This document shows, piece after piece, positions 720-36,586 of a DNA stretch of 64,000 nt. Both the position numbers and the translations under genes were made by a program. Source of the stretch: Verrucomicrobiia bacterium DG1235 (lineage in GTDB: Bacteria; Verrucomicrobiota; Verrucomicrobiia; Opitutales; Opitutaceae); contig DS990592.1 in assembly GCA_000155695.1 (NCBI GenBank), positions 3,333,973-3,397,972 on the forward strand. The letters are read 5' to 3'. A model generated the notes under the pieces. The model was not told the DNA's origin, did no database searches, and saw only the letters and a program-made list of their open reading frames with translations. How positions within the stretch are numbered: position 1 is the stretch's first letter; every line of letters begins with the position of its first letter.

Positions 720-828
720 GAACGCTACCATCACGAAACGATAGCAACTTTCAAGCCACCACCCGCGCTTTTTCCGCGCCAAACACCCCCCACCCCAACA
801 AACCTCAAACTTCCCAGCAAACTGCCAT

Positions 829-866: not shown

Positions 867-874
867 CACCCTTG

Positions 875-1414
875 CTACTCTCCAGGCAGCTTAAAATGCC
901 GATTCAGCTCATACATCATCTCAGTCAAGGCCTTCGTCATCGCCTCAATCCGAGCCCTCCGCTCAAACTCCTGCGACGACAGCGTCGTAAGCGAACCCCT
1001 AGATCTAAACGAACCCAACTTATTCCGGTAGCCATCAGCCTTGAGCCGCGCCCTGATCACCGCCTCCAAAGTATTCATCCGATCCCGCTCCCACCTCACT
1101 GCATAGATCTCCAAAACGGGCAGACCCTTTTCCACCCGATCCAGAGGATCCACGATTTCTACCGCCATCGGAAACCCTGTTCTCTCTAAAACCACAGCAA
1201 GCGCCTCGGCAAACTCCTCCCGCGCCGTTTGCTCCATCGCGTCCGCAATAGACGGAGCGCTAAAATTCAAATCCACGTTTGCGTTATAATAAAAACTGAC
1301 CTGCAGCAGCTCCTCCTCATTCAGGAAAATAAACGGATCGTCTCGCTTCGCCCAAGCACCCGAAACCACAGCAAACACTAAAACAACCAAAACCGTTCCT
1401 CTGAATTTACTCAT
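875..1414 (-). CDS. Small secreted protein of unknown function
   Basis: About 179 residues with an N-terminal signal peptide (FRGTVLVVLVFAVVSGAWA) and a polar, charged mature part. I do not recognise a family. The middle (roughly residues 60-115) has a pattern compatible with an alpha/beta fold, and the C-terminus (from about 145) looks helical. Two ATGs lie six bases apart (1420 and 1414). A strong GGAGG at 1423-1427 is 8 nt from the second and only 2 nt from the first, so I chose 1414. It is transcribed toward the nucleotidase gene, with the palindrome at 829-866 between them. Confidence 0.7.
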   Translation of the reverse strand: MSKFRGTVLVVLVFAVVSGAWAKRDDPFIFLNEEELLQVSFYYNANVDLNFSAPSIADAMEQTAREEFAEALAVVLERTGFPMAVEIVDPLDRVEKGLPVLEIYAVRWERDRMNTLEAVIRARLKADGYRNKLGSFRSRGSLTTLSSQEFERRARIEAMTKALTEMMYELNRHFKLPGE

Positions 1415-1569
1415 CTCCATTTCCTCCTTCCATTCTTAGTCCCCCTCCTTGCAAAAGAGATCCCAATACAAACACCTCCCCGCCCACAACACAAGACAGC
1501 CCACAATTCCCCGCCGCAAAGCTTGCAGCCCGCCACCTGCTCGCGCCTCAATACCGTCGCCATTCCTCC

Positions 1570-4323: not shown

Positions 4324-4375
4324 ACTCCTCCGAGGCCGTCCAGACTTCAAAGCCCAACATTCAAATTCCAAACAA

Positions 4376-4580
4376 CCCGCTCCCGAGTCATCAGACTCGC
4401 CGCACCGCCTCCAAATCACAAAGCTCCCCATCTGCGTCCATCTGCGGCAAAAAACAACACAACCCGATTTCCCTCCACTTCGTGAATCTTAGTGCCCCTT
4501 CGTGGGCAATAAAAACACACAACCCGATCACCCTCCCCATCTCCATTTCATCCTTCATCCTTCATCCTTCATCCCTTCCC
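4376..4580. repeat. Composite intergenic repeat module, copy 1
   Basis: Fills the gap between the SNF2 and SWIM genes. In order: the hairpin CGAGTC-ATCA-GACTCG (4384-4399), a CATCTGCGTCCATCTGCGG unit, an ACTTCGTG...CCTTCGTGGGCAA unit, and a tandem CATCCTT stretch (about 4548-4573). The first three units recur in the same order upstream of tex (7151-7330), and the first two again after tex (9918-10012). No function is evident. Confidence 0.75.
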
Positions 4581-5734: not shown

Positions 5735-6637
5735 TTAGCGAACCTTCCGTCGAATTGCCACGATACCCAGCAAGCCCGTAACCAGCAAGAACACTGCAGA
5801 ACCGGAATCTGGCACACTCGCAGGCCCGTCAAATTCGATATAAACCAAACCATCGGCTCCATCTCCGCCCGCCCAGCGAGTGCTTCCAAGAGCTGAGTCA
5901 TAACCGCCCCCGCCCCCGCCAGCTCCATAGCCAACGCCACCTTTACCGCCAACCGTGAGGTAACCACTTTCCGCCACCGGACCAGAACCACCAATCAATA
6001 TTCCTCCGGCACCGCCACCGCCTTGCCAGAAGATACCCGTTGTTCCTCCTAGACCGCCGGCTCCAGCACTGAGAGTGTTCTCGGTGAAGAGACCAAAGCC
6101 AGCTGTATAGTCACCTTGGCCCAATCCTCCCGCATATCGAGCAGCGCCTCCATTCGAGCCGCCACTTCCTCCAGCGCCAGAAGGTGGAGTGCCACCATTG
6201 TTGCTCCCGCCGCCGCCAGAGCCACCATTGCCACCAGGCTGATTTATACCGGAAACAACACCTCCCCCATTAGCTGTCAGAAAAGAGCCAAAGCTGGAAG
6301 CAGTACCGGCAGTGAGACCTACGATAGCATTGCTGTTCAGTTGAGCTATCCCCCCATTGCCTCCGAGACCCACTACGATAGAAATGAGCTGGCCAGGCGA
6401 TACGCTGAAAGTTCCAAAGCTTACATACCCTGAACCGCCACCACCTTGATGGCCATTGGCGCCGCCCCCGCCGCCACCTATCGCAAGGACCTTCACAGAG
6501 GTCACGCCAGTTGGAACCAAGAACTCTTGAGGCGAGCTACCATCGGTAAAGGTCAGCGACACCGCGTGAGTTGAAGGTAGAGCCAAGGCGCCTAATATTC
6601 CGACAAAGAGGACAAATCGTAGTAACTGTTTTATCAT
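5735..6637 (-). CDS. Glycine-rich exported protein with VPDSG-CTERM sorting signal
   Basis: A 300-residue protein: signal peptide (1-25), a short beta-rich part (VPTGVTSVKVLAIGGGGGG), a long glycine-rich body (about 50-265), and a C-terminal tripartite sorting signal made of VPDSGSA, a hydrophobic helix (VFLLVTGLLGIVAI) and a basic tail (RRKVR). VPDSG-CTERM is a PEP-CTERM variant processed by exosortase-type enzymes and is typical of Verrucomicrobiota. The protein is therefore expected in the outer envelope or extracellular matrix. No exosortase gene is in this window. It is monocistronic, with its own terminator, and lies opposite in direction to its neighbours. Confidence 0.9.
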   Translation of the reverse strand: MIKQLLRFVLFVGILGALALPSTHAVSLTFTDGSSPQEFLVPTGVTSVKVLAIGGGGGGANGHQGGGGSGYVSFGTFSVSPGQLISIVVGLGGNGGIAQLNSNAIVGLTAGTASSFGSFLTANGGGVVSGINQPGGNGGSGGGGSNNGGTPPSGAGGSGGSNGGAARYAGGLGQGDYTAGFGLFTENTLSAGAGGLGGTTGIFWQGGGGAGGILIGGSGPVAESGYLTVGGKGGVGYGAGGGGGGYDSALGSTRWAGGDGADGLVYIEFDGPASVPDSGSAVFLLVTGLLGIVAIRRKVR

Positions 6638-7150
6638 GGTTTTCTGGGGAAGTTTTACCTGTTTACGCCTAGTATACTTAACAGACTAAATTCAGGCATT
6701 TCACTGAACGCTTAGCTAAACCCATACCACTATCGCAGTTTAAAGCTATGATTCAGTCACAAAAACCTACTGGTAAACAACTTATGTACTCAAAAACTCT
6801 GAATACATTATTTTGAAGCCTTGAAGTCCGTAAGGGTTCCTTACGGACATAACCAAATCTTACAACTCTCAGGAGAGTTTCTGATGCCCTCTGAAAGTCG
6901 ATCAAACCAAACGTACACCACCGACTAAATTTCGAGATTGTCTCTTAGGACAAGAGCAGGCGAACGATCAGGCAGCTTGGATAGAGTCACCTCGACAAAA
7001 GAACCGTATCAGAACACCCAAATCCCGCTTGCCAGCCACCTCCCCAATCCCATCCTTCCCCGCTTTCCAAGGTCATACGGGCGCTCCGCGCGCGTTCTCC
7101 CGCAACTAAAATCAACACTCAATTTCATCAACAAATCCCAACCAACCCCA
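6638..7150. other. Intergenic region with two inverted repeats upstream of the VPDSG-CTERM gene
   Basis: No convincing gene here. A perfect hairpin GTCCGTAAGG-GTT-CCTTACGGAC lies at 6826-6848, and AACTCTC-AG-GAGAGTT at 6864-6879. Both lie 190-240 bp upstream of the VPDSG-CTERM start on its strand and lack T-tracts, so they are operator-like rather than terminators. An open frame beginning at 6938 runs into tex, but only through repeat DNA. Confidence 0.5.
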
Positions 7151-7330
7151 CCCGAGTCATCAGACTCGCCCTCAAAAGCTTCCAGACCACAAACCGCCCA
7201 ATCTGCGTCCATCTACGGTAAAAAAGCACAACCCGATCACCAAAAAACTTCGTGTCCCTTAGTGCCCTTCGCGGGCAAAGAAACACAACCCAATTTCCAA
7301 CCCAGTACCCAGTACCCAACAACCCAATTT
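7151..7330. repeat. Composite intergenic repeat module, copy 2
   Basis: Same unit order as 4376-4580: hairpin CGAGTC-ATCA-GACTCG (7153-7168), CATCTGCGTCCATCT unit (about 7199-7220), CTTCGTGTCCCTTAGTGCCC unit (from about 7248), then CCCAGTACCCAGTACCC. It ends three bases before the tex start codon, so any tex leader RNA would contain it. Confidence 0.75.
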
Positions 7331-7333
7331 CCC

Positions 7334-9673
7334 ATGCACGAAAACTTCCTTCCCAAAATCGCTGAAGAACTCAGCATCCCGGAATCCCACGTCACCGCCA
7401 CGGCCAAACTCCTCGTCGAAGGTGGCACCGTCCCCTTCATCGCCCGCTACCGTAAGGAAGCCACCGGCGGACTCGACGAAGTCCAGATCGCCAACATCCG
7501 CGACCGCCTCGACCAGCTCAAAGCCCTCGAAGACCGCCGCGCCGCCATCATCAAATCCCTCGTCGACCAAAAGCTCCTCACCGACGAACTGAAAGCCAAG
7601 GTCGAAGCCGCCGAAACCATGGCACGCCTCGAAGACGTCTACCTCCCCTACAAGCCCAAGCGTCGCACCAAAGCCACCATCGCCCGCGAAAAAGGCCTCG
7701 AACCGCTCGCCGAAAAACTCTTCCAAAACCAAGAAGACGCCAGCATCGATCCCGCCACCGCCGCAGCAGCCTTCGTCGACGCCGAAAAGGAAGTCGCCGA
7801 TTCCGACGCCGCCCTCGCCGGAGCCCGCGACATCATCGCCGAGTGGATCAACGACGACGCCGACGCCCGCGCCGAACTCCGCGAACTCTACACCAAGCAC
7901 TCCACCCTCACCTCCCGCGTCATGATGGGCAAAGAAGAGGAAGGCGCCAAATTCCGCGACTACTTCGACTGGTCCGAGCCCATCGCCAACGCCCCCTCCC
8001 ACCGCATCCTCGCCATCCGCCGCGGCGAGTCGGAAATGGTCCTCTCCATGTCCGTCCGCCCCGACGAAGACCTCGCCGTCGCCAAGCTCGAAGCCCGCTT
8101 CGTCAAAGGACAAAGCCCCGCCGCCGAGCAAGTCCGCCTCGCCACCCGCGACGCCTTCAAGCGACTCCTCTCCATCTCCATGGAAACCGCCGCCCGCCTC
8201 GAAATCAAAAAACGGGCCGACGCGGAAGCTATCAACGTATTCACATCTAACATACGCGAACTCCTCCTCGCCCCCGCCCTCGGCGAACGTACCGTTATCG
8301 CCATCGACCCGGGCTTCCGCACCGGTTGCAAAACCGTCGTGCTCGACGCCCAAGGCAAGCTCCTCTTCGACACCGTCATCTACCCGTCCCAATCCCAACG
8401 CCAGATCGACGTAGCCAAAACCATCGTCAGCGGTCTCGCCCAACGCTTCAACGTCGAAGCCATCGCCATCGGCAACGGCACCGCCGGACGCGAAACCGAA
8501 ACCTTCGTACGCTCCCTCGGCTTGCCCAAGCAAATCGCCATCGTCATGGTCAATGAATCCGGAGCCTCCATCTACTCCGCCTCGGACGTCGCTCGCGAAG
8601 AATTCCCCGACAAAGACATTACCGTACGCGGCGCTGTATCCATCGGACGGAGACTCATGGACCCGCTCGCCGAACTCGTTAAAATCGATCCCAAGTCCAT
8701 CGGAGTCGGCCAGTACCAGCACGACGTCGACCAACGTGCCCTCAAAGCCTCCCTCGACGACTCTGTCCTCTCCTGCGTAAACGCCGTCGGCGTGGAAGTG
8801 AACACCGCCTCCAAGCAGCTCCTCTCCTACGTCTCCGGACTTAATTCCCGCCTCGCCGGCGCCATCGTCGCCCACCGCGAAGCAAACGGCCCCTTCAAGT
8901 CCCGCAAACAGATAACCAAAGTCGCCGGCATCGGACCCAAAGCCTTCGAGCAAGCCGCCGGCTTTCTCCGCATTCGCGGAGCCGAAAATCCGCTCGACGC
9001 CTCCGCCGTTCACCCCGAGCGCTATCCATTGCTCGAGCAAATGGCCAAAGACCTAACCGTCAGCGTTCACGACCTCATAACCGACTCTTCCGCTCGCAAT
9101 AAAGTAGATATCCAAAAATACACTACAGAAGGAGTCGGACTCCCTACACTTCAAGATATCATACAAGAACTCGCCAAGCCCGGCCGCGACCCCCGCGCCG
9201 AATTCGAGCTCATCCAGTTCAAGGAAGGCGTCAACTCCATGGCCGACCTCACCGAAGGCATGAAGCTCACCGGCGTCGTAACCAACGTCACCGCCTTCGG
9301 CGCCTTCATCGACATCGGCGTCCACCAAGACGGACTCGCCCATATCAGCCAACTCTCCGACTCCTTCGTCAAAGACCCCAACGAAGTCGTCAAAGTCGGC
9401 CAAAAGGTCTCCGCCACCGTCACCGAAGTCGACGTCGCCAGAAAGCGCATCGGCCTCAGCCTCAAGTCTGTAGTTGAAATCGACCGACGCTCCCCCGCCG
9501 AGCGCCAAGCCGACAAAGCCAACCAACAAAACCGAGGCCACCGCCCCCAACACGGTGGCGGCAACCGCAACGCCCCGCGCGGCGGCGGAAACCAAAACAG
9601 AGGCGGAGGCAACAACCGCGGCGGAAACTTCGGCAACTCCCTAGGCGACGCCCTCGGCGGCCTCAAGTTCTAG
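7334..9673 (+). CDS. tex: Tex-family RNA-binding transcription accessory protein
   Basis: A 779-residue cytoplasmic nucleic-acid-binding protein of the Tex family. The N-terminal helical region is recognisable by PFIARYRKEATGGLDE. A YqgF/RNase H-like domain starts near residue 319 (VIAIDPGFRTGCKTVV). Helix-hairpin-helix motifs lie at about 502-548 (KVAGIGPKAFEQAAGF), and an S1 domain at about 635-705 (GVVTNVTAFGAFIDIG). The last 45 residues form a Gly/Arg/Asn-rich tail (repeated RGGGN), probably extra RNA-binding surface. I place the start at the ATG at 7334 (MHENFLPKIAEELSIP): that matches the family N-terminus, and everything upstream in frame is repeat DNA. A strong terminator follows. Confidence 0.96.
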   Translation: MHENFLPKIAEELSIPESHVTATAKLLVEGGTVPFIARYRKEATGGLDEVQIANIRDRLDQLKALEDRRAAIIKSLVDQKLLTDELKAKVEAAETMARLEDVYLPYKPKRRTKATIAREKGLEPLAEKLFQNQEDASIDPATAAAAFVDAEKEVADSDAALAGARDIIAEWINDDADARAELRELYTKHSTLTSRVMMGKEEEGAKFRDYFDWSEPIANAPSHRILAIRRGESEMVLSMSVRPDEDLAVAKLEARFVKGQSPAAEQVRLATRDAFKRLLSISMETAARLEIKKRADAEAINVFTSNIRELLLAPALGERTVIAIDPGFRTGCKTVVLDAQGKLLFDTVIYPSQSQRQIDVAKTIVSGLAQRFNVEAIAIGNGTAGRETETFVRSLGLPKQIAIVMVNESGASIYSASDVAREEFPDKDITVRGAVSIGRRLMDPLAELVKIDPKSIGVGQYQHDVDQRALKASLDDSVLSCVNAVGVEVNTASKQLLSYVSGLNSRLAGAIVAHREANGPFKSRKQITKVAGIGPKAFEQAAGFLRIRGAENPLDASAVHPERYPLLEQMAKDLTVSVHDLITDSSARNKVDIQKYTTEGVGLPTLQDIIQELAKPGRDPRAEFELIQFKEGVNSMADLTEGMKLTGVVTNVTAFGAFIDIGVHQDGLAHISQLSDSFVKDPNEVVKVGQKVSATVTEVDVARKRIGLSLKSVVEIDRRSPAERQADKANQQNRGHRPQHGGGNRNAPRGGGNQNRGGGNNRGGNFGNSLGDALGGLKF

Positions 9674-9697
9674 CCGAATCAAACGAATCTCACCCCA

Positions 9698-9725
9698 AGC
9701 GGGCGGCCCAAACCGCCCGCTTTTT
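9698..9725 (+). terminator. Intrinsic terminator of tex
   Basis: A 9-bp G+C-rich stem (AGCGGGCGG at 9698-9706 with CCGCCCGCT at 9713-9721), a 6-nt loop and a T-run at 9721-9725, 25 bp after the tex stop. Confidence 0.9.
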
Positions 9726-9917
9726 CGTACCCTAACCCCGTACGTACCCAAACCCCGTAGGGCTGCCGCTCGCGGCACGCCGCAACTCCCAATTTCGCGC
9801 ACTCAGCGTCCTTCGCGAAAGCCCGCAAAGCCCCAATCCCGTAGTGCGGAACTTCTGTCCGCGTCCAGCAAAGCCCAACCACCAACAAGCCTTCCAAATC
9901 CCAACAACACCGCCCAT

Positions 9918-10012
9918 CCCCGAGTCATCAGACTCGCCCTAAAACGCCTCCAAATCACAAATCGCCCCATCTGCGTCCATCTGCGGTTAAACAAAGCACA
10001 ACCCAATCTCTC
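9918..10012. repeat. Composite intergenic repeat module, copy 3
   Basis: Hairpin CGAGTC-ATCA-GACTCG at 9921-9936, then CCTCCAAATCACAAATCGCC and CATCTGCGTCCATCTGCGG, as in copies 1 and 2. The third unit is missing. The stretch 9726-9917 before it holds no recognisable gene. Confidence 0.7.
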
Positions 10013-10020
10013 CCCCAAAA

Positions 10021-10137
10021 GCCGTCAAAGTCAGCCTCAAGATCGTAGTTGAAATCCACCGACGCCCCGACGCCGTACGCGCCGCCGAAGCCTTGGCGAA
10101 GGAGAAAGGGGTCCTTCGAACAAACGACCAGACTTAA
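10021..10137 (+). pseudogene. Remnant of a duplicated tex 3' segment (S1 domain end)
   Basis: 10031-10068 matches tex 9456-9493 at 33 of 38 positions. Read in frame it gives SLKIVVEIHRRP against SLKSVVEIDRRS in Tex, and the frame closes at a TAA at 10135-10137. The homology stops where the dispersed element CGCCGAAGCCTTGGCGAAGG begins (10083). There is no start codon or upstream domain, so this is a gene fragment and not a functional gene. Confidence 0.6.
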
Positions 10138-10150
10138 TCGGTGCCGAAAC

Positions 10151-10188
10151 CCAAAAAATCGAGAATGCCCAAACCTGAGCATCCTCGA
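10151..10188 (-). terminator. Intrinsic terminator of the 10201-11210 operon
   Basis: Arms 10159-10168 and 10179-10188 pair over 10 bp with one mismatch. On the minus strand the hairpin is followed by six T (10153-10158). It lies 13 bp beyond the stop at 10201. Confidence 0.75.
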
Positions 10189-10200
10189 TCGAGACGGTTC

Positions 10201-10968
10201 CTAGTGTTTACCTGTCTCAACCTCGAACGGCAAAGACAAATCCCCCGAGGCCACGCTGTAGACCTTATACACGCCGAGCATCGGACGACTCTTGTCGCTC
10301 GTGTTCACCTGCATAAAGGCAACCACCGCGTCGAAGCGAAAATCACCCGCCTCCCGTATCCGATTCGCGGGTACGACGATCCTCAACTGCGACCCACGAG
10401 TCACCACCGAAAAGCCAGGCGAATCCATATACATCGGCATCCCGGGATTTGTCGGAGGCAGTTTCACCGACTCATCGCCAGCATCAAACTGCCGCACCGA
10501 AAGCGAGCCGATTCGCTCGTCTTGATGCAGCACCACCCAATGCGTGTGCCAGATTCGGCCGTCGTTCTTCCAGTCGCCATCCGCGTTCTCGTCCCAAAGC
10601 GGAGTGTCATCGAAATCTGGATGCGAAGTCGCAGCCAATGCCAATACGCCTTCCACGTCACCGAACCCGACCGCGCTTGGCTTCAGGTTCGTCGGAAAAA
10701 CATAGCCCAACACAGGCGCGCCATCAAGCTCTCCCTTCGCTTCAGGCATCACGCTACCGGCCTCCCCCTCAACGGTCACTTCGAAGATAAAAGAGTCTAG
10801 CTCGTCCACCTTGACCACCCGAGTCGCCTCGATTTTCAAAGCAGCTGCATCCTCAGGTATCTTAGCGCAATAGGGACATGCCAAAAGCAAATCCGGCAAC
10901 GCCAAACCCAATGCAAGCGCCAACAACGAGCCCTTGCGACTTCCTAACTTGGATAAACGCTTTTTCAC
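10201..10968 (-). CDS. Exported CPYC-containing protein of unknown function
   Basis: A 255-residue protein with a basic N-terminus, a hydrophobic segment (SLLALALGLALPDLLLA) and then CPYCAKIPE. The LLLAC sequence could be a lipobox, making this a lipoprotein, or CPYC could be a metal- or redox-active pair of cysteines; sequence alone does not decide. The mature part looks like a beta-sandwich with conserved-looking Trp/His stretches (WHTHWVVLHQDERIG near 145). The start is a GTG at 10968 with GGAGG (10976-10980) 7 nt upstream, inside the end of the preceding thioredoxin-like gene, so translation of the two is probably coupled. I do not recognise a named family. Confidence 0.75.
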   Translation of the reverse strand: MKKRLSKLGSRKGSLLALALGLALPDLLLACPYCAKIPEDAAALKIEATRVVKVDELDSFIFEVTVEGEAGSVMPEAKGELDGAPVLGYVFPTNLKPSAVGFGDVEGVLALAATSHPDFDDTPLWDENADGDWKNDGRIWHTHWVVLHQDERIGSLSVRQFDAGDESVKLPPTNPGMPMYMDSPGFSVVTRGSQLRIVVPANRIREAGDFRFDAVVAFMQVNTSDKSRPMLGVYKVYSVASGDLSLPFEVETGKH

Positions 10969-10970
10969 GA

Positions 10971-11210
10971 TTAAGCCTCCAGTTGCTCGAGCGAAGCACC
11001 GAAATTCACATGGAACACGCTCTCGCCAATGAGTAATGCTGGCACGGATACGACACCCGCTGCCTTAGCTTCAGCAAGTCGAACAGGCGACTCCCCCAAA
11101 TGCACGATTTCAACCTCATAACGATTCGTATCGATGGCCGACGCGACTCCGCGCTCCGCTCCGACACAAACAGGACAACCGGCATGGTAATAGATGGCTT
11201 TGCTTTTCAT
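10971..11210 (-). CDS. Small thioredoxin/glutaredoxin-like protein (CPVC)
   Basis: A 79-residue cytoplasmic protein with a thioredoxin-fold pattern: beta strand KAIYYHAG, a CPVC redox motif at 12-15, a helix, beta strand YEVEIVHL, and the cis-proline loop VVSVPALLIGE near 54-64. Such small glutaredoxin-like proteins reduce disulfides or pass electrons to partner proteins. It is the first gene of a two-gene operon with the exported CPYC protein (2-bp gap) and is transcribed divergently from the LysR gene at 11368. There is no Shine-Dalgarno; the leader instead contains five TTTTAG repeats. Confidence 0.8.
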   Translation of the reverse strand: MKSKAIYYHAGCPVCVGAERGVASAIDTNRYEVEIVHLGESPVRLAEAKAAGVVSVPALLIGESVFHVNFGASLEQLEA

Positions 11211-11226
11211 AATTCAGATTTCTAAT

Positions 11227-11256
11227 TTTTAGTTTTAGTTTTAGTTTTAGTTTTAG
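11227..11256. repeat. Five tandem TTTTAG hexamers in the leader of the thioredoxin-like gene
   Basis: Perfect (TTTTAG)x5, starting 17 bp upstream of the start codon at 11210. Short tandem repeats in a leader can change copy number by slippage and alter promoter or translation strength. That role is an inference here. Confidence 0.9.
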
Positions 11257-11304
11257 TTTCAACGCCCTGAGGCGTCTGGTTCGCCATCAAGTTACCTCAA
11301 TTCA

Positions 11305-11348
11305 TCTGATAAGAATATTAATTCTTTTTGATTGTTCTGATAGGAATA
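11305..11348. promoter_or_regulatory. Probable LysR operator between the divergent genes
   Basis: Two direct copies of TCTGATARGAATA (11305-11317 and 11336-11348, 12 of 13 bases alike) are spaced 31 bp apart, about three helical turns. The first overlaps an inverted repeat AAGAAT-ATTA-ATTCTT (11311-11326). It lies just upstream of the LysR start at 11368, the usual place for an autoregulatory site that also controls the divergent operon. Confidence 0.55.
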
Positions 11349-11367
11349 GCATATCAATTAACTTCCC

Positions 11368-12258
11368 ATGGAACTTCGCCAAATTCGCTCCTTCCGTGTC
11401 GTCGCTGCCGAAGAACACTTTCGCCGCGCCGCAGAAAAGCTTAACATCGCTCAACCTGCCTTGTCCCTACAAGTACGCCAACTGGAGGAGGAACTCGGCA
11501 CCCAACTCTTCGAACGCGTCGGCCGAGGCGTCCGGCTCACCGATGCAGGCTCCCTCTTCTGGGACTACGCCGACCGAATCGTCTCCCTTGTAGACGAGTC
11601 CGCCGAAGCCACCCGCGAGCACAGCGACCTCATTCGCGGACGCCTACGCATCGGCATCGCCCAAACGCCCAATTGCTGCTTCGGGCCCGCCGTCATCAGC
11701 GCCTTCAAACGCCGCTACCCCCAGGTATTCGTTTCCCTCGCCGAACTGGCTGCCGACGAAATCGAGTCATCCCTCCTCAAAGGTGAGCTCGACCTTGGCA
11801 TCGGCTTCGGCCCATGCGATTCGCCCAACCTTAGCTCGGAATCAATCTACGAAGAACGTTTCGTCGCTCTAGCTCCCCGTGGCCATCCTTGGTTCAACAA
11901 GAAGAACATCAGCCTCAAAACGCTCGCCCAAGAAGAACTCATTCTCCTCACCCGCGACTACTGCACGCGGCGAATTTTTGAAAAAACCTGCGACGACCTA
12001 GACGTCTCCCTAAAAGTTGCCATCGAAATGAATACCATCGAAGGCATCATCGCCTCCCTCGAATCCACGGGTCTCGCCAGCGTGCTGCCCGCCCAAATCG
12101 TCAATTCCCCTCTCATGAGCCCGACGCTTCGCTCAGTCCCTATCGCCCAACCGGGAATTCGACGCAAAGTCGCCCTCGTCTATCGCAAGTCAGGCTACCT
12201 CAGTCCCGCCGCCCACGCCATGGCCACCGAATGGAAAACCCTAGCCAAATCCCTATAA
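11368..12258 (+). CDS. LysR-family transcriptional regulator
   Basis: A 296-residue regulator of normal LysR length. The N-terminal winged helix-turn-helix is clear: MELRQIRSFRVVAAEEHFRRAA, then LNIAQPALSLQVRQLEEELG and LFERVGRGVRLTDAG. Residues 90-296 form the periplasmic-binding-protein-like effector domain (RGRLRIGIAQ at its start). It is divergent from the thioredoxin-like/CPYC operon and is probably its regulator (inference from position). Several cysteines in the effector domain (NCC near 106, CTRR and KTC near 200) are compatible with redox sensing, but I see no proof. Confidence 0.93.
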   Translation: MELRQIRSFRVVAAEEHFRRAAEKLNIAQPALSLQVRQLEEELGTQLFERVGRGVRLTDAGSLFWDYADRIVSLVDESAEATREHSDLIRGRLRIGIAQTPNCCFGPAVISAFKRRYPQVFVSLAELAADEIESSLLKGELDLGIGFGPCDSPNLSSESIYEERFVALAPRGHPWFNKKNISLKTLAQEELILLTRDYCTRRIFEKTCDDLDVSLKVAIEMNTIEGIIASLESTGLASVLPAQIVNSPLMSPTLRSVPIAQPGIRRKVALVYRKSGYLSPAAHAMATEWKTLAKSL

Positions 12259-12448
12259 CGCAAGGCCCGAACCTCTTTCGAGGCACAGCGATTCCGCACC
12301 CATCAAGTCCACTTCGATGAGAAATCATTCATCTGCTTCAGACTCCACCGCTCCCTCCTATTGCTTTCGCATTCCGCCATCCCAACAACCTAAGCATTTT
12401 CACGCTCATTCGTCTTGCGCCGCTTTGTATCCAAAGCAGCGTGACATC

Positions 12449-12625
12449 ATGTTCCCTACCCCCTTCCTTCGCTTCCTCGGCTGCGCCGTCCCCCTTTCCC
12501 TCGCATTTCTATCAATCGCCACCGCCAACGAACTCCGAGTGTCCGGCTCCAACGACTACGGGCAACTAGGCAACGGTCAGTCTGACTATTTCAATCACTT
12601 CGAAAAACTCGCCGAGGGCAAATAA
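12449..12625 (+). pseudogene. Truncated secreted RCC1-repeat protein
   Basis: A 58-residue frame: a signal peptide (MFPTPFLRFLGCAVPLSLAF...ATA), then a single RCC1-type repeat start (LRVSGSNDYGQLGNGQ) and a stop. RCC1 proteins normally have several repeats of about 50 residues forming a propeller, so this is probably the 5' remnant of a longer gene. The stop falls just inside the direct repeat that begins at 12618, suggesting that the repeat marks the break. 12259-12448 holds no other gene. Confidence 0.55.
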
Positions 12626-12724
12626 AGCATCAATCATTACTCTTTGCGGTTCGTGAGAGGTCTCAACAAAATGTTCCGGTTGCTTCTAGTCCGACTGAGC
12701 CTGCCTCAAGCTTAGACTCAGATG
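12618..12724. repeat. Direct repeat A flanking the Ntn-hydrolase gene
   Basis: About 107 bp, about 90% identical to 13849-13955 and in the same orientation. Shared blocks include TACTCTTTGCGGTTCGTGAG and TCTAGTCCGACTGAGCCTGC. A weaker third trace (TTACCCTTTGCG) follows at about 12746. The rest of 12725-12948 shows no gene. Confidence 0.85.
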
Positions 12725-12948
12725 GGGATTTTAAAGTGTAAATCCTTACCCTTTGCGATGACTCGGAAAATCCGAAAGGTGTCAAACATCGAAAGTCAAA
12801 TGCTAAGAGGCGGGAAACGTTGGAAGTCAAATTCTGTGGGCATACCCGAAGAGAGCACACGGAATTGAACTTCCGATTCTCCTAGGGGTCGCAGTCAATC
12901 TCGTTCAACTCCAAATCCGTCACCACAAATCCAATACCCCTAGCGAAG

Positions 12949-13806
12949 ATGAAGCCTTTCCTACTCTTTTCCATACTCTGCGTTCTCTCACCCCTCTACC
13001 TTCAACACGCGACCGCCTGCAGCATGGTCTGTTTCGTCGACCAGTCCGGCCAAACGTGGATCGGTAACAATGAGGACTATTCCAATCCCAACACTTGGAT
13101 GTGGACAGAGCCGAAGAGAAAAAACAAGTACGGCATCGTGTTCTTCGGGTTCGGGGACTTCTTCCCGCAAGGAGGGATCAACGAAGCCGGCTTGGTCTTC
13201 GATGGATTCGCCATGCCGCCATTGGAGCAGAAACTCCAAAAAGGCAGGAAGAAGATAGATTCGACCAAGCTCATGAAGAAGACCATGGGCAGCTGCTCCA
13301 CCGTGGCTGAGGTCAAGGAAATGATCCTCAAATACCGACTAAGCTTCCTCGACTCCGCCCAACTGCTGTTCGCCGACAAATCCGGGGCCACGCTTATCGT
13401 CGAGGGCGACGAAGTGGTCGAAAAAGCGGCGGGCGAACACCAAATCTGCACAAACTTTTACCAATCACTCATCGATTCCCACGAGCAGATCAGCTGTCCT
13501 CGATACTTGAAAGCCTACGCCATGTTCGCCGACGACGCCCTGATCGAGGACGGAAAAGGCTTCTGCCGGGACCTAATAGACGCCATGCACCAAGAGAGCG
13601 AGCAATGGGGAGGCACCCAGTATTCAAATATCTACGACCCGAAAAACGGAGTCATCTACCTCTACCTCTTCCACAACTACGAGGAAGAAGTTCGCCTGAA
13701 CGTCAGCGAAGTCCTCGCCACTCAGAAAGAGCCGATTCGCATTTTCACCCTTTTCCAAAACACGCAAGATTACGACCGCTATCAAGCGCGACACTCCCAA
13801 CGGTAA
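12949..13806 (+). CDS. Exported linear-amide hydrolase of the Ntn (choloylglycine/penicillin-acylase-like) type
   Basis: A 285-residue protein. A signal peptide (1-23, ending ATA) is followed directly by CSMVCFVDQSGQTWIGNNEDY, the arrangement of Ntn hydrolases where the N-terminal Cys is the nucleophile and the following strand ends in an acidic N/D pair. Later strands (GIVFFGFGDFFPQGGINEAGLVFDG) fit the family, whose members cleave linear C-N amide bonds such as those of bile-salt conjugates, penicillin V or N-acyl homoserine lactones. The substrate cannot be told from sequence. Signal-peptide cleavage before Cys24 would itself expose the nucleophile. The gene stands alone between two direct repeats. 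Confidence 0.75.
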   Translation: MKPFLLFSILCVLSPLYLQHATACSMVCFVDQSGQTWIGNNEDYSNPNTWMWTEPKRKNKYGIVFFGFGDFFPQGGINEAGLVFDGFAMPPLEQKLQKGRKKIDSTKLMKKTMGSCSTVAEVKEMILKYRLSFLDSAQLLFADKSGATLIVEGDEVVEKAAGEHQICTNFYQSLIDSHEQISCPRYLKAYAMFADDALIEDGKGFCRDLIDAMHQESEQWGGTQYSNIYDPKNGVIYLYLFHNYEEEVRLNVSEVLATQKEPIRIFTLFQNTQDYDRYQARHSQR

Positions 13807-13848
13807 GGAGGCAATCTGCGCTTGTTCACTTTAGGGTCTGCTACGGGG

Positions 13849-13955
13849 GCTAATAATGCATCAACCCTTACTCTTTGCGGTTCGTGAGAGGACTCAATAG
13901 AATGTTCCGATTACTTCTAGTCCGACTGAGCCTGCTTCAAGCTTAGTCTCAGAGA
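13849..13955. repeat. Direct repeat B flanking the Ntn-hydrolase gene
   Basis: Partner of 12618-12724; about 11 differences in 105 aligned bases. The two copies are 1231 bp apart and bracket one complete gene. Confidence 0.85.
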
Positions 13956-14435
13956 CTGTCTATAAGTGAGCTGAGGCACTCAAGAGGTTCAGCTCTTAAA
14001 ACTTGCAATCCACTAATCTCCATTCTCTGGATACGCTTAACTCCAGCCACGAGAAAAACGAATAGACAACGTTTCACTTTCCACATTTAGCCCCTCCCAA
14101 AAAACACCCCTAACGTCGCACTGCGACACCTATGCGCCGCAGGCGCCCTGACAAAAATTACCGCCGCCCAGCGGCGTTCCAATTTCACAACGTATTACAG
14201 AGGCGATGACGTATACTAAAGCTCAGCTTTGACCCTATCGATTCCCCCACAATGCCGAAACAAAGCCTATTGATGGTTGACTTGGCAAACAGAGTCCTAC
14301 AGTCGTAAGACCAAAGCATCCCCCACTCTTGTTTTGCTCCGATTTGGTCAACAATCGGTAACAAACGACTCTTATACTGATACGCAACTCCACGTTCAGT
14401 ATGACCCCAACTAGGAATACAACTCCCCTCGTCCC
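13956..14435. other. Gene-free leader of the ADOP permease
   Basis: No gene seen. It contains a small hairpin GTCGCA-C-TGCGAC followed by ACCT at 14115-14131, of a family also present at 55477-55493 and 57008-57024 (GTCGC-N3-GCGACACCT), and two other G+C-rich hairpins nearby (about 14134-14149 and 14162-14176). Confidence 0.5.
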
Positions 14436-16880
14436 ATGAACCTATTTCGCGACGTCAAATTCGGACTGCGCCTGCTGCGCAAAAACAAATGGATCAGCAT
14501 TGCGGCCCTCGTTTCCCTAGGCCTTTGCATTGGCGGAAACGCAGCGATCTTCACCATGCTAAACGGACTCATCCTTCGCCCGCTTCCCTTTCATGAATCC
14601 GATAAAATCGTAGAAATATACAACACCTATCCAGAGGGTGGACTCGACAAGGCAGCAAGCAACATTCCGCTCTATATAGACTATCACGATAATACTGACG
14701 CCTTCAGCGATCTCGCGCTGATCGGTGGTTTCTCGGGAACGATTATAGAGAGCGACACCCCCGAACGAATAGGCGGGATGCGCGTGACCTCGGGTTTCTT
14801 CGACGTCTTTCGCGTTACTCCCGAGTTGGGAAGCTTCATCGCGGAAGAGAACATGATCTCGGAACAACATCGGGTGATCGTCCTCGCATACAACTACTGG
14901 CGCGAGCGATACGCCTCCGCTCCCGATGTAGTGGGAGAATCCATACAAATCGACGGAGAGCCCTTCGAGATTCTTGGCGTGGCTCCCCGCTCACTGGAAG
15001 CTCTCTACCCGAACGTCCGGATCTACACTGCCTACGCCTGGACCCCCGAACAAGCGGAAAACTTCCCGCGACACTTGAACAACTCACAACTGCTCGGACG
15101 GCTGAATAACAACATCTCGATCCTAAACGCCCAGCAGCAAGTCGATGCGAGAGACGAGATCTTCTACGAAGCAACCCCACAGATTCAGGACTTCCTAAAT
15201 CGCACGGGGCACAAATCTGTCGTCTCCGAGCATCAAGCGGAGCGAGTCAAAAGCGTCTCGTCCGTGCTCTACCTCCTGCAGATCGGAGCCCTTTTCGTGC
15301 TGGCAATTGGCTGCGTGAACATCGCAAACCTCCTCCTCATCCGATCAAACGCCCGCGAGTCGGAATTCGCCATTCGCTGCGCGATCGGGGCCAGACCCAC
15401 TGCCATTGCCCGCCAGCTGCTCATCGAAAGCGTGCTCCTATCGATGGGAGGCGCTCTATGCGGAGGATTCCTGGCATTTCTTGGTATCCGACTCATCAAT
15501 ACCTATGCCATGGATATGCTACCGCCCATACAACCACTCGCGCTGGATGTCCCTACCATGCTCTTCGCCCTCGGCCTCTCGGTCGCTGCAGGCGTAATCG
15601 TAGGATCCGTCCCCGCCCTACGCGTCTTCCGGCTCAGGCTGACAGCAGGGCTGAACCAAAACTCCCGCAGCGCATCCGCTAGCCGCGCCGCCAAGTTCAC
15701 CAGCTCCGCCCTTGCTTGTGGACAAATCACACTCGCAGCCATGCTCCTCATCGGGACCGGCCTGCTCCTTCTCAGTTTCTCCAAGATCCTCTCGCGCGAC
15801 CTTGGCTTCGATCCGGAAAACATCACTACGCTCCAGCTATCGCTCTCGGGGGCGGACTATAGCGATCAAGAAAACGTGCACGCCTTCCAAAAACGATTGC
15901 TCGATGGCATTCGCGCCTTGCCGGGAGTGGACAAGGCCAGCATCGCAGCCCATGTTCCGATCGTAACAGGCTACCCCTACAACACCTTCAATATTTTCGG
16001 ATACCAGATGGCCGAAGGCGAGGACCAGCTTGCCGCCCTTCACACATGGGTCGCGCCCGATTACTTCGAATCGCTCGGCATTCGCATCATACAAGGCGAA
16101 GCCTTCAGCTTTACCGATAGAGAAACCGGCCGACGGAGCATGGTCATCGATAAAGTTCTAGCAGACCGCTACTACCCGGACGAAAACCCGATCGGACGGC
16201 GACTCGGATTCGTGGGATCAAATACGCCAGAGGAGGACTGGCCTACCGTCATCGGCGTTGCGGAAAAAGTTCAACATACCGCGATCGACGGTATCCAGGG
16301 CGCTCCCTTCATGTACGAAAACATTTACCAAGGCGCGTTTCGCAATTTTCGCGTATTCATAAAAAGCGGACGCGATAGCAGCTCGCTCTTGCCCGAGGTT
16401 CGTGAAACGCTTCGAGAGATCGATTCTGCCATTCCGATTATCTATTTCGGTTCTCTAGCGGAAAGCATCGACAACTCCCTAGACAACAAACGCGCCGTCA
16501 TGCTCCTGCTCGGCATTTTCGCTGGCATAGCGGTCACCCTATCAGCCGTGGGCATCTACGGCGTGCTCGCCTACCGCGTCTCGCAACAAAGCAGAGAGAT
16601 CGGCACCCGCGCCGCAATTGGCGCGAGCCGACAGCAAATCCTCACCTATTTCATCACCCGCGGTCTGATCCGAACCACCATAGGCATCGGCATCGCCCTC
16701 GTCAGCGCTTCGCTCTTAGGCCGACTAATGTCCTCAATGCTCTTCGACGTAGAACCGAACAACCTCGCCGTCTATGCCAGCGCCGCATCCCTCCTCTTCG
16801 TCGTATCCATGCTAGCGAGTTTCATCCCCGCCCTAAAAGCGTCCCGTATCCAACCGATGGAGGCGCTCAGAATCGAGTAA
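14436..16880 (+). CDS. ADOP-family ABC transporter permease (MacB/FtsX type)
   Basis: An 814-residue inner-membrane protein with the duplicated MacB_PCD-FtsX layout of the ADOP (acidobacterial duplicated orphan permease) family. It has a first membrane helix near residues 20-45 (ISIAALVSLGLCIGGNAAIF), a periplasmic domain up to about 265, three helices at about 275-400, a second periplasmic domain (from about 440), and three C-terminal helices ending FIPALKASRIQPMEALRIE. MacB-type permeases use ATP for mechanotransmission across the envelope instead of classical transport. No ATPase gene is adjacent, as is usual for this orphan family. It converges on a second ADOP gene. Confidence 0.9.
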   Translation: MNLFRDVKFGLRLLRKNKWISIAALVSLGLCIGGNAAIFTMLNGLILRPLPFHESDKIVEIYNTYPEGGLDKAASNIPLYIDYHDNTDAFSDLALIGGFSGTIIESDTPERIGGMRVTSGFFDVFRVTPELGSFIAEENMISEQHRVIVLAYNYWRERYASAPDVVGESIQIDGEPFEILGVAPRSLEALYPNVRIYTAYAWTPEQAENFPRHLNNSQLLGRLNNNISILNAQQQVDARDEIFYEATPQIQDFLNRTGHKSVVSEHQAERVKSVSSVLYLLQIGALFVLAIGCVNIANLLLIRSNARESEFAIRCAIGARPTAIARQLLIESVLLSMGGALCGGFLAFLGIRLINTYAMDMLPPIQPLALDVPTMLFALGLSVAAGVIVGSVPALRVFRLRLTAGLNQNSRSASASRAAKFTSSALACGQITLAAMLLIGTGLLLLSFSKILSRDLGFDPENITTLQLSLSGADYSDQENVHAFQKRLLDGIRALPGVDKASIAAHVPIVTGYPYNTFNIFGYQMAEGEDQLAALHTWVAPDYFESLGIRIIQGEAFSFTDRETGRRSMVIDKVLADRYYPDENPIGRRLGFVGSNTPEEDWPTVIGVAEKVQHTAIDGIQGAPFMYENIYQGAFRNFRVFIKSGRDSSSLLPEVRETLREIDSAIPIIYFGSLAESIDNSLDNKRAVMLLLGIFAGIAVTLSAVGIYGVLAYRVSQQSREIGTRAAIGASRQQILTYFITRGLIRTTIGIGIALVSASLLGRLMSSMLFDVEPNNLAVYASAASLLFVVSMLASFIPALKASRIQPMEALRIE

Positions 16881-16944
16881 AGTCGGAATCTTCAAAACGG
16901 AGGTTGCGAGAGCCCGAAAAGCGCCAACCGAATCTGTTTCAACG

Positions 16945-19332
16945 TCATGCCTCCCGCAAGTTCTCAACCGGATCCCGCCGCGCTGCCTGCAGCGCTGGTC
17001 CAATCATAGAAACCAAGGCGACCGTGGCGAGTACCACAACTACAGTCACCAACGGAGCGGGGTCGAATCGTTCGACTGCGAATAGCAGCTCCGAGAACTT
17101 CCCGAATAATACCAGCACCGCTACCAAGCCCAAGGCCACGCCCCAAACCACCGGCACGCCACACTCGCGCATCGTCCAGGAAAGAATCCGTCTGCCGTCC
17201 GCGCCGATCGCCATCCGAATTCCGATCTCGTTCCGATGATCCTTCACGAGGTGGTACATCAAGGCGAACAAGCCATAACCCGCGATCGCCAAGGCCAGCA
17301 CCGCCACGTAGCCCGCCACCAACGCCGACAGCTTAAACACCGAGAACGTTTCACCAAAGCTCTCCTCTATCGTCGCAAACTCCACCACCGGCAGCTTTAG
17401 GGGGCCTTCGCCGAGCATCCTCGCGATCTCCTCGCGCACCAGCTCCGGATTTCCCTCGGTCTTGATATGAAAAACCATATCCGGCGGCGCGAACCCGACA
17501 AAAATTTGCGGCTTTATATCAAGCCCGAGCTCCTGCTCGAAGTTCGAGCAGACCCCCACCACATCCACAACCGGACCGTCCCTCCAAGGCTTAAACGCTC
17601 TTCCGATCGCCACCCCGCCCGGCCAGTACCGATCCACAAAGGCCTCGTTCACGATGACCTTCGACATCGGATAATTCATATCCTCGAATATCAAATCCCT
17701 TCCCTCCAAAAGCTCGACTCCAAGCGCCTTGAAATAGTCAGGTCCAGCGTACTGCAGACGCACCTCGCACTTGTCCGGCTCGACTCGAAAATCATAGCCA
17801 TCGATCTCAATCTTACTGACCTTTATATGCCGCAGCGGCTGCAAGGTCGCCATCCCTACCGTCTTCACTTGCGGAAGCGCGTCGAGGCGACTCTTGATCC
17901 TCCTGTATTCAGGAATCGTATACTGCGGATCGTCGTATTGCCGCCCCAAGGGCTTGTAGTTTACCGCCAGCAACAAAAGCTCTTCCGACTCGAAACCGTG
18001 GTCGATATTATGAGCGTTTCGTAGCGAATCTATAAACCACCCGCAAACGCATACGATCACCACCGATAGCGCCACCTGAAATCCCACGAACACCTTTCTT
18101 CCGAAAAACTGCTTCGTCCCGCGCGTCCCCATGCGCAGCTCTCGGTTGAGGTCGATTCGCCACACGTCCAGCCAACCACCGACACTGATAAAAAGGCCGC
18201 ACAGGACAGGTGTCACCAGCAAGGCCCAGACCACCCACGCATTGCCCAGCAAGCTCAACTCGCTCACCTCTCCCGTACCCGGAATCTCACTACGAAACGC
18301 CTTGATCAACCCTACCGCTATAGCAACCCCTAGCCCCCATCCTAAGTAGCTCAGTAGAACGTTTTCGAAAAACACCCTTCGCAAAACCCAGTTCCGCTTC
18401 GCCCCGATCGCCAGGAAAACCGAATACTCGTGAAGGCGAGACTTCACCCGAGCCGAGACCAAATTGGTCACGTTAAACAACGCAATCAACAGCAGCAGCG
18501 AAATCAACGCGAATATCAACAGCGTCGTCTTTGCCACCACAGCCCGAGTCCCACTCTGATTCGCCTCCACTCCCGACAACAACTCAAAAATTACCTCGGG
18601 ACCATCGTTCGGATTCTCCTCCCGAATCCTCGCTCCCAGTTGCTGCAGCTCCTCGACTCCCTGCCCAACACTCACCCCCTCCTTCAGAAGTCCCCACGTT
18701 ACGTACATCGGCCAATTCCGCAGCGTAAGCTGCCACCGATCGAGAATATGCTCACTCGCTATCCAGAAGTCCTGACGCGATAGGTTGTCCAATCCCACAA
18801 ACGACGCCGGCGCCACGCCCGCCACCACAAACGGCACCCCGTTCAACGAAATCGAATTCCCGAGCGCCGACACGTCCGCATCAAACTCTCTCCGCCAAAA
18901 CGCTTCGCTCACTATGACCGCCCGATCCGAAGACGCCTCGAAATCTTCCGCCCCGATAAATCTCCCCACCACGGGCTTCAGACCCAAAGTTGAAAAGAAG
19001 TTTCCCGAGACCGACGCTCCGCTCAAAACCTTCGCCCCTTCCCCATCGCCCACCAAATAGTCCTCCAAGTGCATGTAGTGGATAAGCGACTCAAAACTCT
19101 CGTTCTCCCTTACCAGCGTCTGGTAGACCGGATAGCTAACACCGCCATCTGGAGCGGGAGTCCTCAAGCGTACAAAGCGAGCAGGATCCTCAACCGGCGT
19201 TGTCTTGAGCAAGACTGTATAGAGCACGAAAAATGATACAAGCAAGGCGCTGCTCGCCAACGCTAACATCACAACAATCGACAAACTCTCGGACAAAGAA
19301 GATCTAACTTTTCTTAGTATATACATAGGCAA
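16945..19332 (-). CDS. ADOP-family ABC transporter permease, second copy
   Basis: A 795-residue paralogue of the preceding gene type with the same layout: first helix near 15-40 (SIVVMLALASSALLVSFF), periplasmic domain, helix trio from about 265 (LLIFALISLLLLIALFNVTN), second periplasmic domain, and C-terminal trio ending GPALQAARRDPVENLREA. It diverges enough from the 14436 gene that this is not a recent duplication. The two genes are convergent with 64 bp between their stops and no clear terminator. A short piece of this gene (18373-18455) is duplicated at 19695-19778. Confidence 0.9.
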   Translation of the reverse strand: MPMYILRKVRSSLSESLSIVVMLALASSALLVSFFVLYTVLLKTTPVEDPARFVRLRTPAPDGGVSYPVYQTLVRENESFESLIHYMHLEDYLVGDGEGAKVLSGASVSGNFFSTLGLKPVVGRFIGAEDFEASSDRAVIVSEAFWRREFDADVSALGNSISLNGVPFVVAGVAPASFVGLDNLSRQDFWIASEHILDRWQLTLRNWPMYVTWGLLKEGVSVGQGVEELQQLGARIREENPNDGPEVIFELLSGVEANQSGTRAVVAKTTLLIFALISLLLLIALFNVTNLVSARVKSRLHEYSVFLAIGAKRNWVLRRVFFENVLLSYLGWGLGVAIAVGLIKAFRSEIPGTGEVSELSLLGNAWVVWALLVTPVLCGLFISVGGWLDVWRIDLNRELRMGTRGTKQFFGRKVFVGFQVALSVVIVCVCGWFIDSLRNAHNIDHGFESEELLLLAVNYKPLGRQYDDPQYTIPEYRRIKSRLDALPQVKTVGMATLQPLRHIKVSKIEIDGYDFRVEPDKCEVRLQYAGPDYFKALGVELLEGRDLIFEDMNYPMSKVIVNEAFVDRYWPGGVAIGRAFKPWRDGPVVDVVGVCSNFEQELGLDIKPQIFVGFAPPDMVFHIKTEGNPELVREEIARMLGEGPLKLPVVEFATIEESFGETFSVFKLSALVAGYVAVLALAIAGYGLFALMYHLVKDHRNEIGIRMAIGADGRRILSWTMRECGVPVVWGVALGLVAVLVLFGKFSELLFAVERFDPAPLVTVVVVLATVALVSMIGPALQAARRDPVENLREA

Positions 19333-19607
19333 CGTGCAGGCGCTCCAAACTCGGACACGTGCCCACCAGCCATGATCCCATAAGCTCTAGACCAAAGAGG
19401 AACCAACAGACTAAAAGGAGAGGCGCAATCAAGAGAGGAATACAGGATTCAAGGGATACATATACAAATCACCCACGTCAGCCCTCCGCAAGCAATAGCT
19501 TAATTAAGTTTACGTATTCCAATTCGCAGTCTCTACCTCAAGAGATCCCATTTTATTCACTCCCCTGCACCCCCTCTCCCACTTCCAATTCTAAGCACCA
19601 GTGATTA

Positions 19608-19629
19608 TCAGAACCACCAGTGGTTCTGA
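19608..19629. promoter_or_regulatory. Operator-like palindrome upstream of the second ADOP gene
   Basis: TCAGAACCAC-CA-GTGGTTCTGA, 10-bp perfect arms with a 2-bp spacer. It is 276 bp upstream of the start at 19332 and 133 bp past the end of the giant-protein operon. No T-tract follows, so it is unlikely to be a terminator. The rest of 19333-19694 holds no gene. Confidence 0.4.
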
Positions 19630-19694
19630 ACTTTACTCAACTACAAGTTTCTAACGACCTCCCAGCTACATCCTAGCAAATCTTCCCCGCTCTA

Positions 19695-19778
19695 AAACCC
19701 CTCGTAAAACCCAGTTCCGCTTCGCCCCGATCGCCAAACAAGCAGAATACTCGTGAAGCCGCTACTTCAACCGGGCTC
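19695..19778 (-). pseudogene. Duplicated fragment of the ADOP permease gene
   Basis: Closely matches 18373-18455 in the same orientation, including CAGTTCCGCTTCGCCCCGAT. Read on the minus strand it gives ARLK-stop-RLHEYSACLAIGAKRNW where the intact permease has ARVKSRLHEYSVFLAIGAKRNW. The Ser codon has become the TAG that ends the neighbouring 164-residue-frame gene, so the last residues of that gene come from this fragment. Confidence 0.75.
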
Positions 19779-20223
19779 GAAAAAACAACGAGTCCGGAAT
19801 CTCCCCTTCGCTCACCCGCCAGCCCTTTCCTTCCGGCTGGAAAATCCCCCCTGCCTCCACCACACTCCAATTCACGGCCTCCAGATCTTCAGAGAAAACC
19901 AGCTCCCAGCGCTCCTCGGAAAACTCGATGTACAAGTCGCCCTCGCCAAGCCAGCGATAAAGCACCTTCACCGCCCCTATATCGATAGGCGCCACCTCCC
20001 CATCCCTTCGCAAAAGCGAAAACAGCTCGTTCAGAGAAACGGATACCGTCCCGTCCTGCCCTTGCACCAGCCCTCCGCTGTTCGGGACAAACGCATCCAC
20101 CACCTCGAAACGGCCAAACGACGACATGCCTGCCCCAGCGACGAAGCCGCCCGCGTGCTCGATGTCCTCCGCCATTAGCTGGCAACAGAAAACGACAAGA
20201 CCGATCCCGCTAAAGCGCCTCAT
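19762..20223 (-). CDS. Small exported protein, last gene of the giant-protein operon
   Basis: About 153 residues with a signal peptide (RRFSGIGLVVFCCQLMA). I do not recognise the family. The mature part alternates short beta-prone stretches with Gly (GGFVAGAGMSSFGRFEVVDAF), and the C-terminus reads like a value-reporting module found in Verrucomicrobiota secreted proteins (YIEFSEERWELVFSEDLEAVNW). The start is at 20223, preceded by AAAGGAG, and overlaps the end of the MORN gene by 14 bp, so the two are coupled. The final ARLK and the stop are encoded by an ADOP permease fragment, so the original C-terminus may have been replaced. Confidence 0.7.
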   Translation of the reverse strand: MRRFSGIGLVVFCCQLMAEDIEHAGGFVAGAGMSSFGRFEVVDAFVPNSGGLVQGQDGTVSVSLNELFSLLRRDGEVAPIDIGAVKVLYRWLGEGDLYIEFSEERWELVFSEDLEAVNWSVVEAGGIFQPEGKGWRVSEGEIPDSLFFRARLK

Positions 20224-20755
20224 CCTTAAACTCCTTTCGGGAAATTTCCTCCCCACGCTCCATCCTCACCTCTAACTTCAATCCGCCGCCCGCATACCAA
20301 GAGCGCGATAAACCATGCGGCACCCCTGCCTCTAGGCTTAACTCGCTCAACAGCTGCCCATTTTCACTCCACCTGCGAAACGTTCCCTCAAACCGCCCCT
20401 CGGCGATCCGCCCTTCAGAACGCTTCGTTCCGTTTTCAAACCACTTCGTACGCACACCATGCGAAACGCCCATCCGAAAACCCTCGCGAACCTGCATCTG
20501 TCCATTCAGATAAAAACCCAAGGACCAACCATGCTGCTTCCCTTCCTTAAAATCTGACTGCGACTTCAAGGATCCATCCGAGTAGTATTCGACTGCTCTC
20601 CCGCTGAACGCCAAATCGCCCGTATTCTCGAAATACCTACCGTCCTCCAATCGCAGTTCGGACAATTCAACAAGCTCCCGATCCCAAGTCAGCAGCAACG
20701 CAACAGCCCCAAGCCCAACCAAGAGAAACGCACACGCTATTCTTCGAACATTCAA
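20210..20755 (-). CDS. MORN-repeat (YwqK-like) membrane-anchored or exported protein
   Basis: 181 residues. A single N-terminal hydrophobic helix (IACAFLLVGLGAVALLLTW) acts as signal or anchor. Residues 35-175 carry about five MORN_2-type repeats of the form YYSDGSLKSQSDFKEGKQHG, FYLNGQMQVREGFRMGVSHG, WFENGTKRSEGRIAEGRFEG and RWSENGQLLSELSLEAGVPHG. Such repeats form stacked beta-hairpins; a YwqK-like subset has been annotated as an antitoxin, but nothing here supports that role. It is the sixth gene of the operon, 15 bp after the thrombospondin-repeat gene. Confidence 0.85.
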   Translation of the reverse strand: MNVRRIACAFLLVGLGAVALLLTWDRELVELSELRLEDGRYFENTGDLAFSGRAVEYYSDGSLKSQSDFKEGKQHGWSLGFYLNGQMQVREGFRMGVSHGVRTKWFENGTKRSEGRIAEGRFEGTFRRWSENGQLLSELSLEAGVPHGLSRSWYAGGGLKLEVRMERGEEISRKEFKDEAL

Positions 20756-36580: not shown

Positions 36581-36586
36581 CCGTTC

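Follow-up and report, generated by a model that had tools for sequence, protein, structure and literature searches.

In the 64,000-nucleotide stretch of DNA analysed here (the window), two same-orientation copies of a 110-bp sequence bracket a single hydrolase gene, the left copy lying at the break of an RCC1-like gene, and the whole block is absent from the corresponding locus of Pelagicoccus sp. SDUM812002 (G003)—in which the hydrolase gene occupies another position, itself represented by an empty site in the genome of the window. This arrangement is best read as an old islet of accessory genes within a variable slot, that is, as the relic of an insertion or segmental duplication at a hotspot, with a probability that we put at roughly 0.55. 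According to this reading, the hydrolase gene would have entered the patchwork region to the right of a LysR-type regulator gene (Table 1) together with its upstream region, the part firmly common to G003 amounting to about 0.97 kb. The event or events would have left on each side of the hydrolase gene a copy of an intergenic sequence that is low in copy number and so far known from here alone, and would have interrupted the RCC1-like gene at the left copy's outer edge. The two copies probably arose in the same event as the arrival of the gene, either by insertion beside a resident copy or by segmental duplication followed by loss. One linked event can only be inferred, since a single-repeat ancestral state did not turn up; furthermore, a third, partial copy of the repeat core, just to the right of copy 1, is not accounted for by a simple one-step insertion.

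Table 1. Features of the islet and its left flank, in window coordinates.
Feature	Position	Strand	Basis or remark
LysR-type regulator, last gene of the slot's conserved left side	11368–12258	+	Pfam HTH_1, LysR_substrate
RCC1-like secreted protein gene, truncated 5′ fragment	12449–12625	+	Relative in G006; RCC1 label by eye
Repeat copy 1	12613–12722	+	110 bp; repeat search of the window, genome search
Third, partial relative of the first part of the repeat (core motif)	12733–12757	+	10 bp right of copy 1
Hydrolase unit common to G003: 110 bp upstream and gene	12839–13806	+	blastn 12839–13805, 88.8%
CBAH/C45-like Ntn-type hydrolase gene, 285 aa, secreted by eye	12949–13806	+	Pfam, NCBIfam, PDB profile
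Repeat copy 2	13844–13953	+	110 bp; repeat search of the window, genome search

The repeat pair and the slot around it

An earlier note on this DNA had described same-orientation repeats bracketing the hydrolase gene, and a repeat search of the window bore this out: the two copies of the repeat (D1) are 89% identical over 110 nt with start points 1231 bp apart, and they differ by 12 mismatches, 7 of which are transitions, with longest identical runs of 24 and 22 bases. Within 11369–16880, exact repeats reach 24 nt, whereas 200 mononucleotide shuffles gave none longer than 17 nt, and the pair was recovered by self-BLAST of the window with an E value of 6e-35. Genome searches of the own assembly (5.78 Mb, 6 contigs, 96.5% complete) found two full copies, both here and within 1.35 kb of each other, and not the many genome-wide copies that the same note had named as counterevidence; the short core of the repeat does recur. 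BLAST with the 110-bp repeat detected the full sequence in none of 56 relatives, seven congeners among them, such that the own genome is the only one of 57 to carry it, and the best further match across these 57 genomes was 29 bases long, in G003. There was no match among plasmid, phage, and viral-contig records, from which records very near the window's own genome were possibly left out, and a search for literature on direct repeats in Pelagicoccus genomes found none.

Because the copies are 89% identical and orthologs are 82% identical at third codon positions, the copies would be younger than the split from G003 if they have been neutral and free of gene conversion, which could mask their true age; such an age agrees with the absence of D1 from G003. 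The repeats are probably no longer active. Origin as a coding remnant was rejected, with mismatches spread 5, 3, and 4 over the three codon positions (counted by eye) and stops in all six frames of 12600–12960 and 13800–14440, as was a tRNA attachment site, the window holding no tRNA.

The foremost rival explanation, to which we give perhaps one chance in a handful, takes the 110-bp sequence to be a small non-autonomous insertion element; two landings, neither connected with the hydrolase gene, would then have bracketed it by coincidence. Indeed, both copies share the same two ends, the left copy breaks the RCC1-like gene at its edge, and the core recurs elsewhere in the genus. However, no terminal inverted repeats were found (local score 4 for the first versus the last 30 bases of each copy), and neither the single copies nor the islet as a whole show a target duplication of 2–11 bases; furthermore, the genome has no full copies beyond these two close neighbors, and the other places in which the core occurs have only about 28 positions in common.

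The claim that the left copy coincides with the break of an RCC1-type gene also held. The fragment, which by eye comprises a signal peptide and an RCC1-like start, resembles the beginning of an open frame of 889 aa in the congener G006 (53% identical over 45 aa), and this match (12482–12616) ends at the fourth base of copy 1, with the open reading frame itself ending at 12625. When the first 560 of the 889 aa of the G006 frame were compared with the whole window, no convincing match to the remainder of the gene was found downstream, the others having E values of at least 0.25; a 22-aa candidate on the opposite strand at 14685–14750 (E 0.42) was taken as a chance match. Neither the fragment alone nor the longer frame 12317–12622 has a family match.

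The LysR-type regulator has an ortholog with 95% amino acid identity in G003, with synteny continuing leftwards. Synteny of G003 with the window covers 7311–12262 and a weak piece at 12388–12456, and is then found at 36533–36722 and from 41183 onwards; the RCC1 fragment, both repeats, and the hydrolase gene are absent from the locus in G003, with about 12457–36530 of the window missing. In G006, about 1 kb of spacer separates the LysR gene from a relative of 16949–19331; this spacer holds a small open frame of a different kind, no repeat copy and, by eye, no RCC1-like frame. These two are the congeners, out of the seven that form the sample behind the islet reading, in which the locus is comparable, the other five having no LysR ortholog at E ≤1e-60. 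The gene to the right of the islet (14436–16880) has no relative above 39% in the seven congeners at E ≤1e-100. The empty site that the earlier note had proposed to look for, with a single repeat and an intact RCC1 gene, did not turn up: no congener has the full repeat, and neither G003 nor G006 shows an RCC1 gene at this place.

Several other features of the window were noted in passing. A 3049-aa open frame (21641–30790) lies within the stretch missing from G003 at this locus. An 84% identical pair is found at 18371–18453 and 19694–19776, with the first copy inside a MacB-like gene (16945–19332) and the second at the end of, and past, a small frame (19762–20256). A frame encoding an endosialidase-chaperone (Peptidase_S74) domain contains tandem repeats of about 90 bp (31403–31760), and a 23S rRNA intervening-sequence-type protein gene (53176–53532) lies between two sugar-nucleotide-type genes (neighbors by eye). 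A second, largely intergenic interspersed repeat family, with 78–84% identity, is represented at 4360–4519, 7132–7287, and 9892–10010 and contains a perfect CGAGTCATCAGACTCG hairpin and a CATCTGCGTCCATCTGCGG stretch; the copy at 7132 falls in the listed frame 6938–9673, upstream of what is probably the gene's real start, and a copy occurs in G003 too.

The hydrolase gene and its second locus

The hydrolase gene is the one gene enclosed by the D1 copies. It gave a marginal match to Pfam CBAH (PF02275; 21.5 bits, cut-off 20.4), limited to residues 74–153, and a match to NCBIfam C45_proenzyme with an E value of 7e-14 and 51.8 bits, under the cut-off of 85. A two-sequence profile matched choloylglycine hydrolase 7sve in the PDB with an E value of 1.8e-4 over residues 75–155. 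The structure model from the two-sequence alignment was unusable (pLDDT 33.9), and the Ntn label thus rests on the profiles. The gene is single-copy in its own assembly, and the search of 56 genomes yielded one close relative, that of G003 (89% amino acid identity), as well as two weak partial relatives in the family (31% and 39%).

In G003, the gene lies on contig C68, and firm homology to the window is confined to 12839–13805. A weaker upstream alignment runs to about 12751, an extension left unproven by the score of 34 for 12723–12838 alone, which equals the shuffle maximum of 34 (mean 20); homology does not extend past the stop codon (score 22, shuffle mean 18). The G003 gene sits in a 14.5-kb segment (C68:8225–22691), the counterpart of which in the own genome is an empty site, namely a 20-bp junction at C6:1637538 to 1637559. 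Among the proteins of this segment, those adjoining the hydrolase were inspected, and point to defence-type genes: an AAA ATPase of a restriction system passes the TIGR04435 cut-off, an HNH-like protein stays under its cut-off, and two further proteins are a PADLOC candidate PDC-S14 and a PDC-S01-like ATPase.

The G003 gene has no D1 copies. In addition, no flanking direct repeat pair of at least 20 bases was found in L027:7000–11000, a 22-nt inverted pair (77%) that flanks the gene and a 20-nt direct pair (80%) with one copy inside it both being of a kind that chance gives. No core with 3 or fewer mismatches occurs in C68:1–50000 (loci L090, L027, and L093). In L027, 23-bp tandem repeats (10413–10496) just upstream of a PDC-S01-like ATPase gene hold AAAGTGTCAATCC, part of the core.

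Third-codon-position identity between the own genome and G003, determined for two genes only, is 0.818 for the hydrolase and 0.831 for the LysR regulator. As the hydrolase has diverged much like the LysR gene, either an ancestral gene has moved in at least one lineage or there were two uptakes from close sources. Furthermore, with the G003 gene lacking D1, the repeats are not the vehicle of the gene. The proposal that the arrangement records an insertion therefore stands in outline—the block is absent from the G003 locus, the RCC1-like gene is cut at the repeat edge, and the hydrolase gene lies elsewhere in G003—and fails for the repeats as carriers of the gene. Thus, one accessory gene is found at two unrelated loci in sister strains, neither of which carries it at the locus used by the other.

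The core motif and the less likely explanations

The third relative of D1 (Table 1) has 2 mismatches to the 19-base core TCAATCCTTACTCTTTGCG, and its local alignment with copy 1 scored 34, compared with at most 31 in 200 shuffles. At 3 or fewer mismatches, the core has three matches in the window (12630, 12739, and 13861), against 0.01 expected. Elsewhere, the own genome has one occurrence with 1 mismatch (C6:5048889) and two with 3 mismatches, a looseness at which the reversed control also gave 3 matches; in congeners, it occurs once in G003 (contig C96, exact) and once in G001 (contig C53, 1 mismatch). The exact 19-base core is present in one record of genome_contigs, the G003 contig. Alignment of six core places with their flanks gave about 28 shared positions, with the by-eye consensus TAAAGNGTCAATCCTTACYCTTTGCGGT, beyond which nothing obvious is shared, by eye, except by the two D1 copies.

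In the wider phylum, the core with one free base and at most 1 mismatch was matched in 5 of 387 genomes, namely the own genome (2 matches) and four with single matches, with 1 match for the reversed control and about 3 chance matches expected by a rough estimate. At 2 or fewer mismatches, matches were found in 5 of the 120 genomes of a family sample—four in the own genome, one in G001, and three singles outside the genus—and the reversed control had 1 match, in the own genome. The genus members in this sample were G000 (the own genome), G001, G002, G004, and G005; G003, G006, and G007 were covered by whole-genome BLAST with the 110-bp repeat only, and the exact core in G003 was found through genome_contigs.

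At C6:5048889, the core precedes by about 50 bp a gene that looks lipoprotein-like by eye and has no Pfam match, and the surrounding stretch has no match in the seven congeners at E ≤1e-8. Short stretches near this core (L029, 4505–4718) recur at five other places in the genome with 82–93% identity, and constitute another intergenic repeat family. The core on C96 of G003 lies about 63 bp upstream of the parD-like antitoxin gene of a parDE-like pair, on a contig with Gabija-like genes; a Gabija-like GajA/GajB pair and the parDE-like pair are located at 734–4191 and 5849–6396 of locus L028 on this contig.

It seems unlikely that D1 works in transcription as a twice-used feature, be it promoter, operator, terminator, or structured RNA. 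At C6:5048889 and on C96, the core does precede a gene in the same relative orientation, as such a feature would; in the window, however, this orientation points away from any gene start, and the G001 core lies between two apparently convergent genes. Structured RNA and terminator were each rejected as identities of D1: folding of both copies on both strands fell within shuffles (z 1.68, 0.20, 0.13, and −1.01), the window has no Rfam match at gathering score, and there is no promoter-like site in 12250–14450 and no terminator-like site inside either repeat.

Present excision or amplification of the hydrolase gene by recombination between the repeats, a capacity suggested by the earlier note, is also unlikely, and D1 as a live device of this kind is somewhat harder still to credit than a transcription feature. 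If D1 were active, its same-orientation copies 1231 bp apart would make a simple gene-dosage switch, against which their divergence argues. RecA-type recombination has length and divergence limits, and on this basis it is unlikely to be frequent between copies that are 11% diverged and identical over no more than 24 bp in a row. Furthermore, neither a recombinase nor a transposase gene was recognised by eye among open frames of at least 80 aa in 8000–20000, the hydrolase gene is present once in the assembly, and its G003 counterpart does without the repeats. One report states that the minimal segment for recombination is not known for the organism group it concerns (PMC12046097).

Least probable is the joint proposal that Pelagicoccus has an undescribed cassette-like system with the approximately 28-bp core as its junction site, and that further sites of accessory genes in the genus are marked by single copies of the core: it draws on the three modules in a row (core and about 80 bp; core and hydrolase; core and about 80 bp), which begin with the core or within about 10 bases of it, and on the other cores at accessory genes, and is opposed by the position of the G001 core between apparently convergent genes, by the lack of a core near the G003 hydrolase, and by an upstream edge of the hydrolase unit that is not firmly at the core. 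D1 and its core are a small sequence to watch for at accessory-gene sites such as those of the islet reading.

Comparison with known systems

Integron cassettes (attC) are characterized by RYYYAAC/GTTRRRY core sites and an IntI integrase; by eye, no GTTRRRY core is present in the D1 repeat. A composite transposon bounded by insertion sequences was rejected, as no flanking transposase was recognised by eye in the open frames of at least 80 aa in 8000–20000 or among the neighbors scanned against Pfam. D1 resembles MITE- and REP-type repeats in being short and intergenic, with the same ends in both copies and no coding frame, but differs in having neither terminal inverted repeats nor a target duplication and in having two full copies only; the multiple dispersed copies by which MITEs are recognised are here replaced by recurrence of the core of about 28 positions alone. 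With respect to choloylglycine/C45 Ntn hydrolases, the enclosed gene passes the Pfam CBAH cut-off and encodes a Cys after an apparent signal peptide (by eye), but falls under both the C45 and the bile-salt-hydrolase cut-offs of NCBIfam and carries GNNED in place of the GRNxD of CBAH members. Overall, the locus is most like genomic islets and accessory-gene hotspots in its conserved LysR flank and in gene contents that differ among G003, G006, and the own genome, and is unlike them in that a 110-bp direct repeat pair brackets one gene of the patchwork here.
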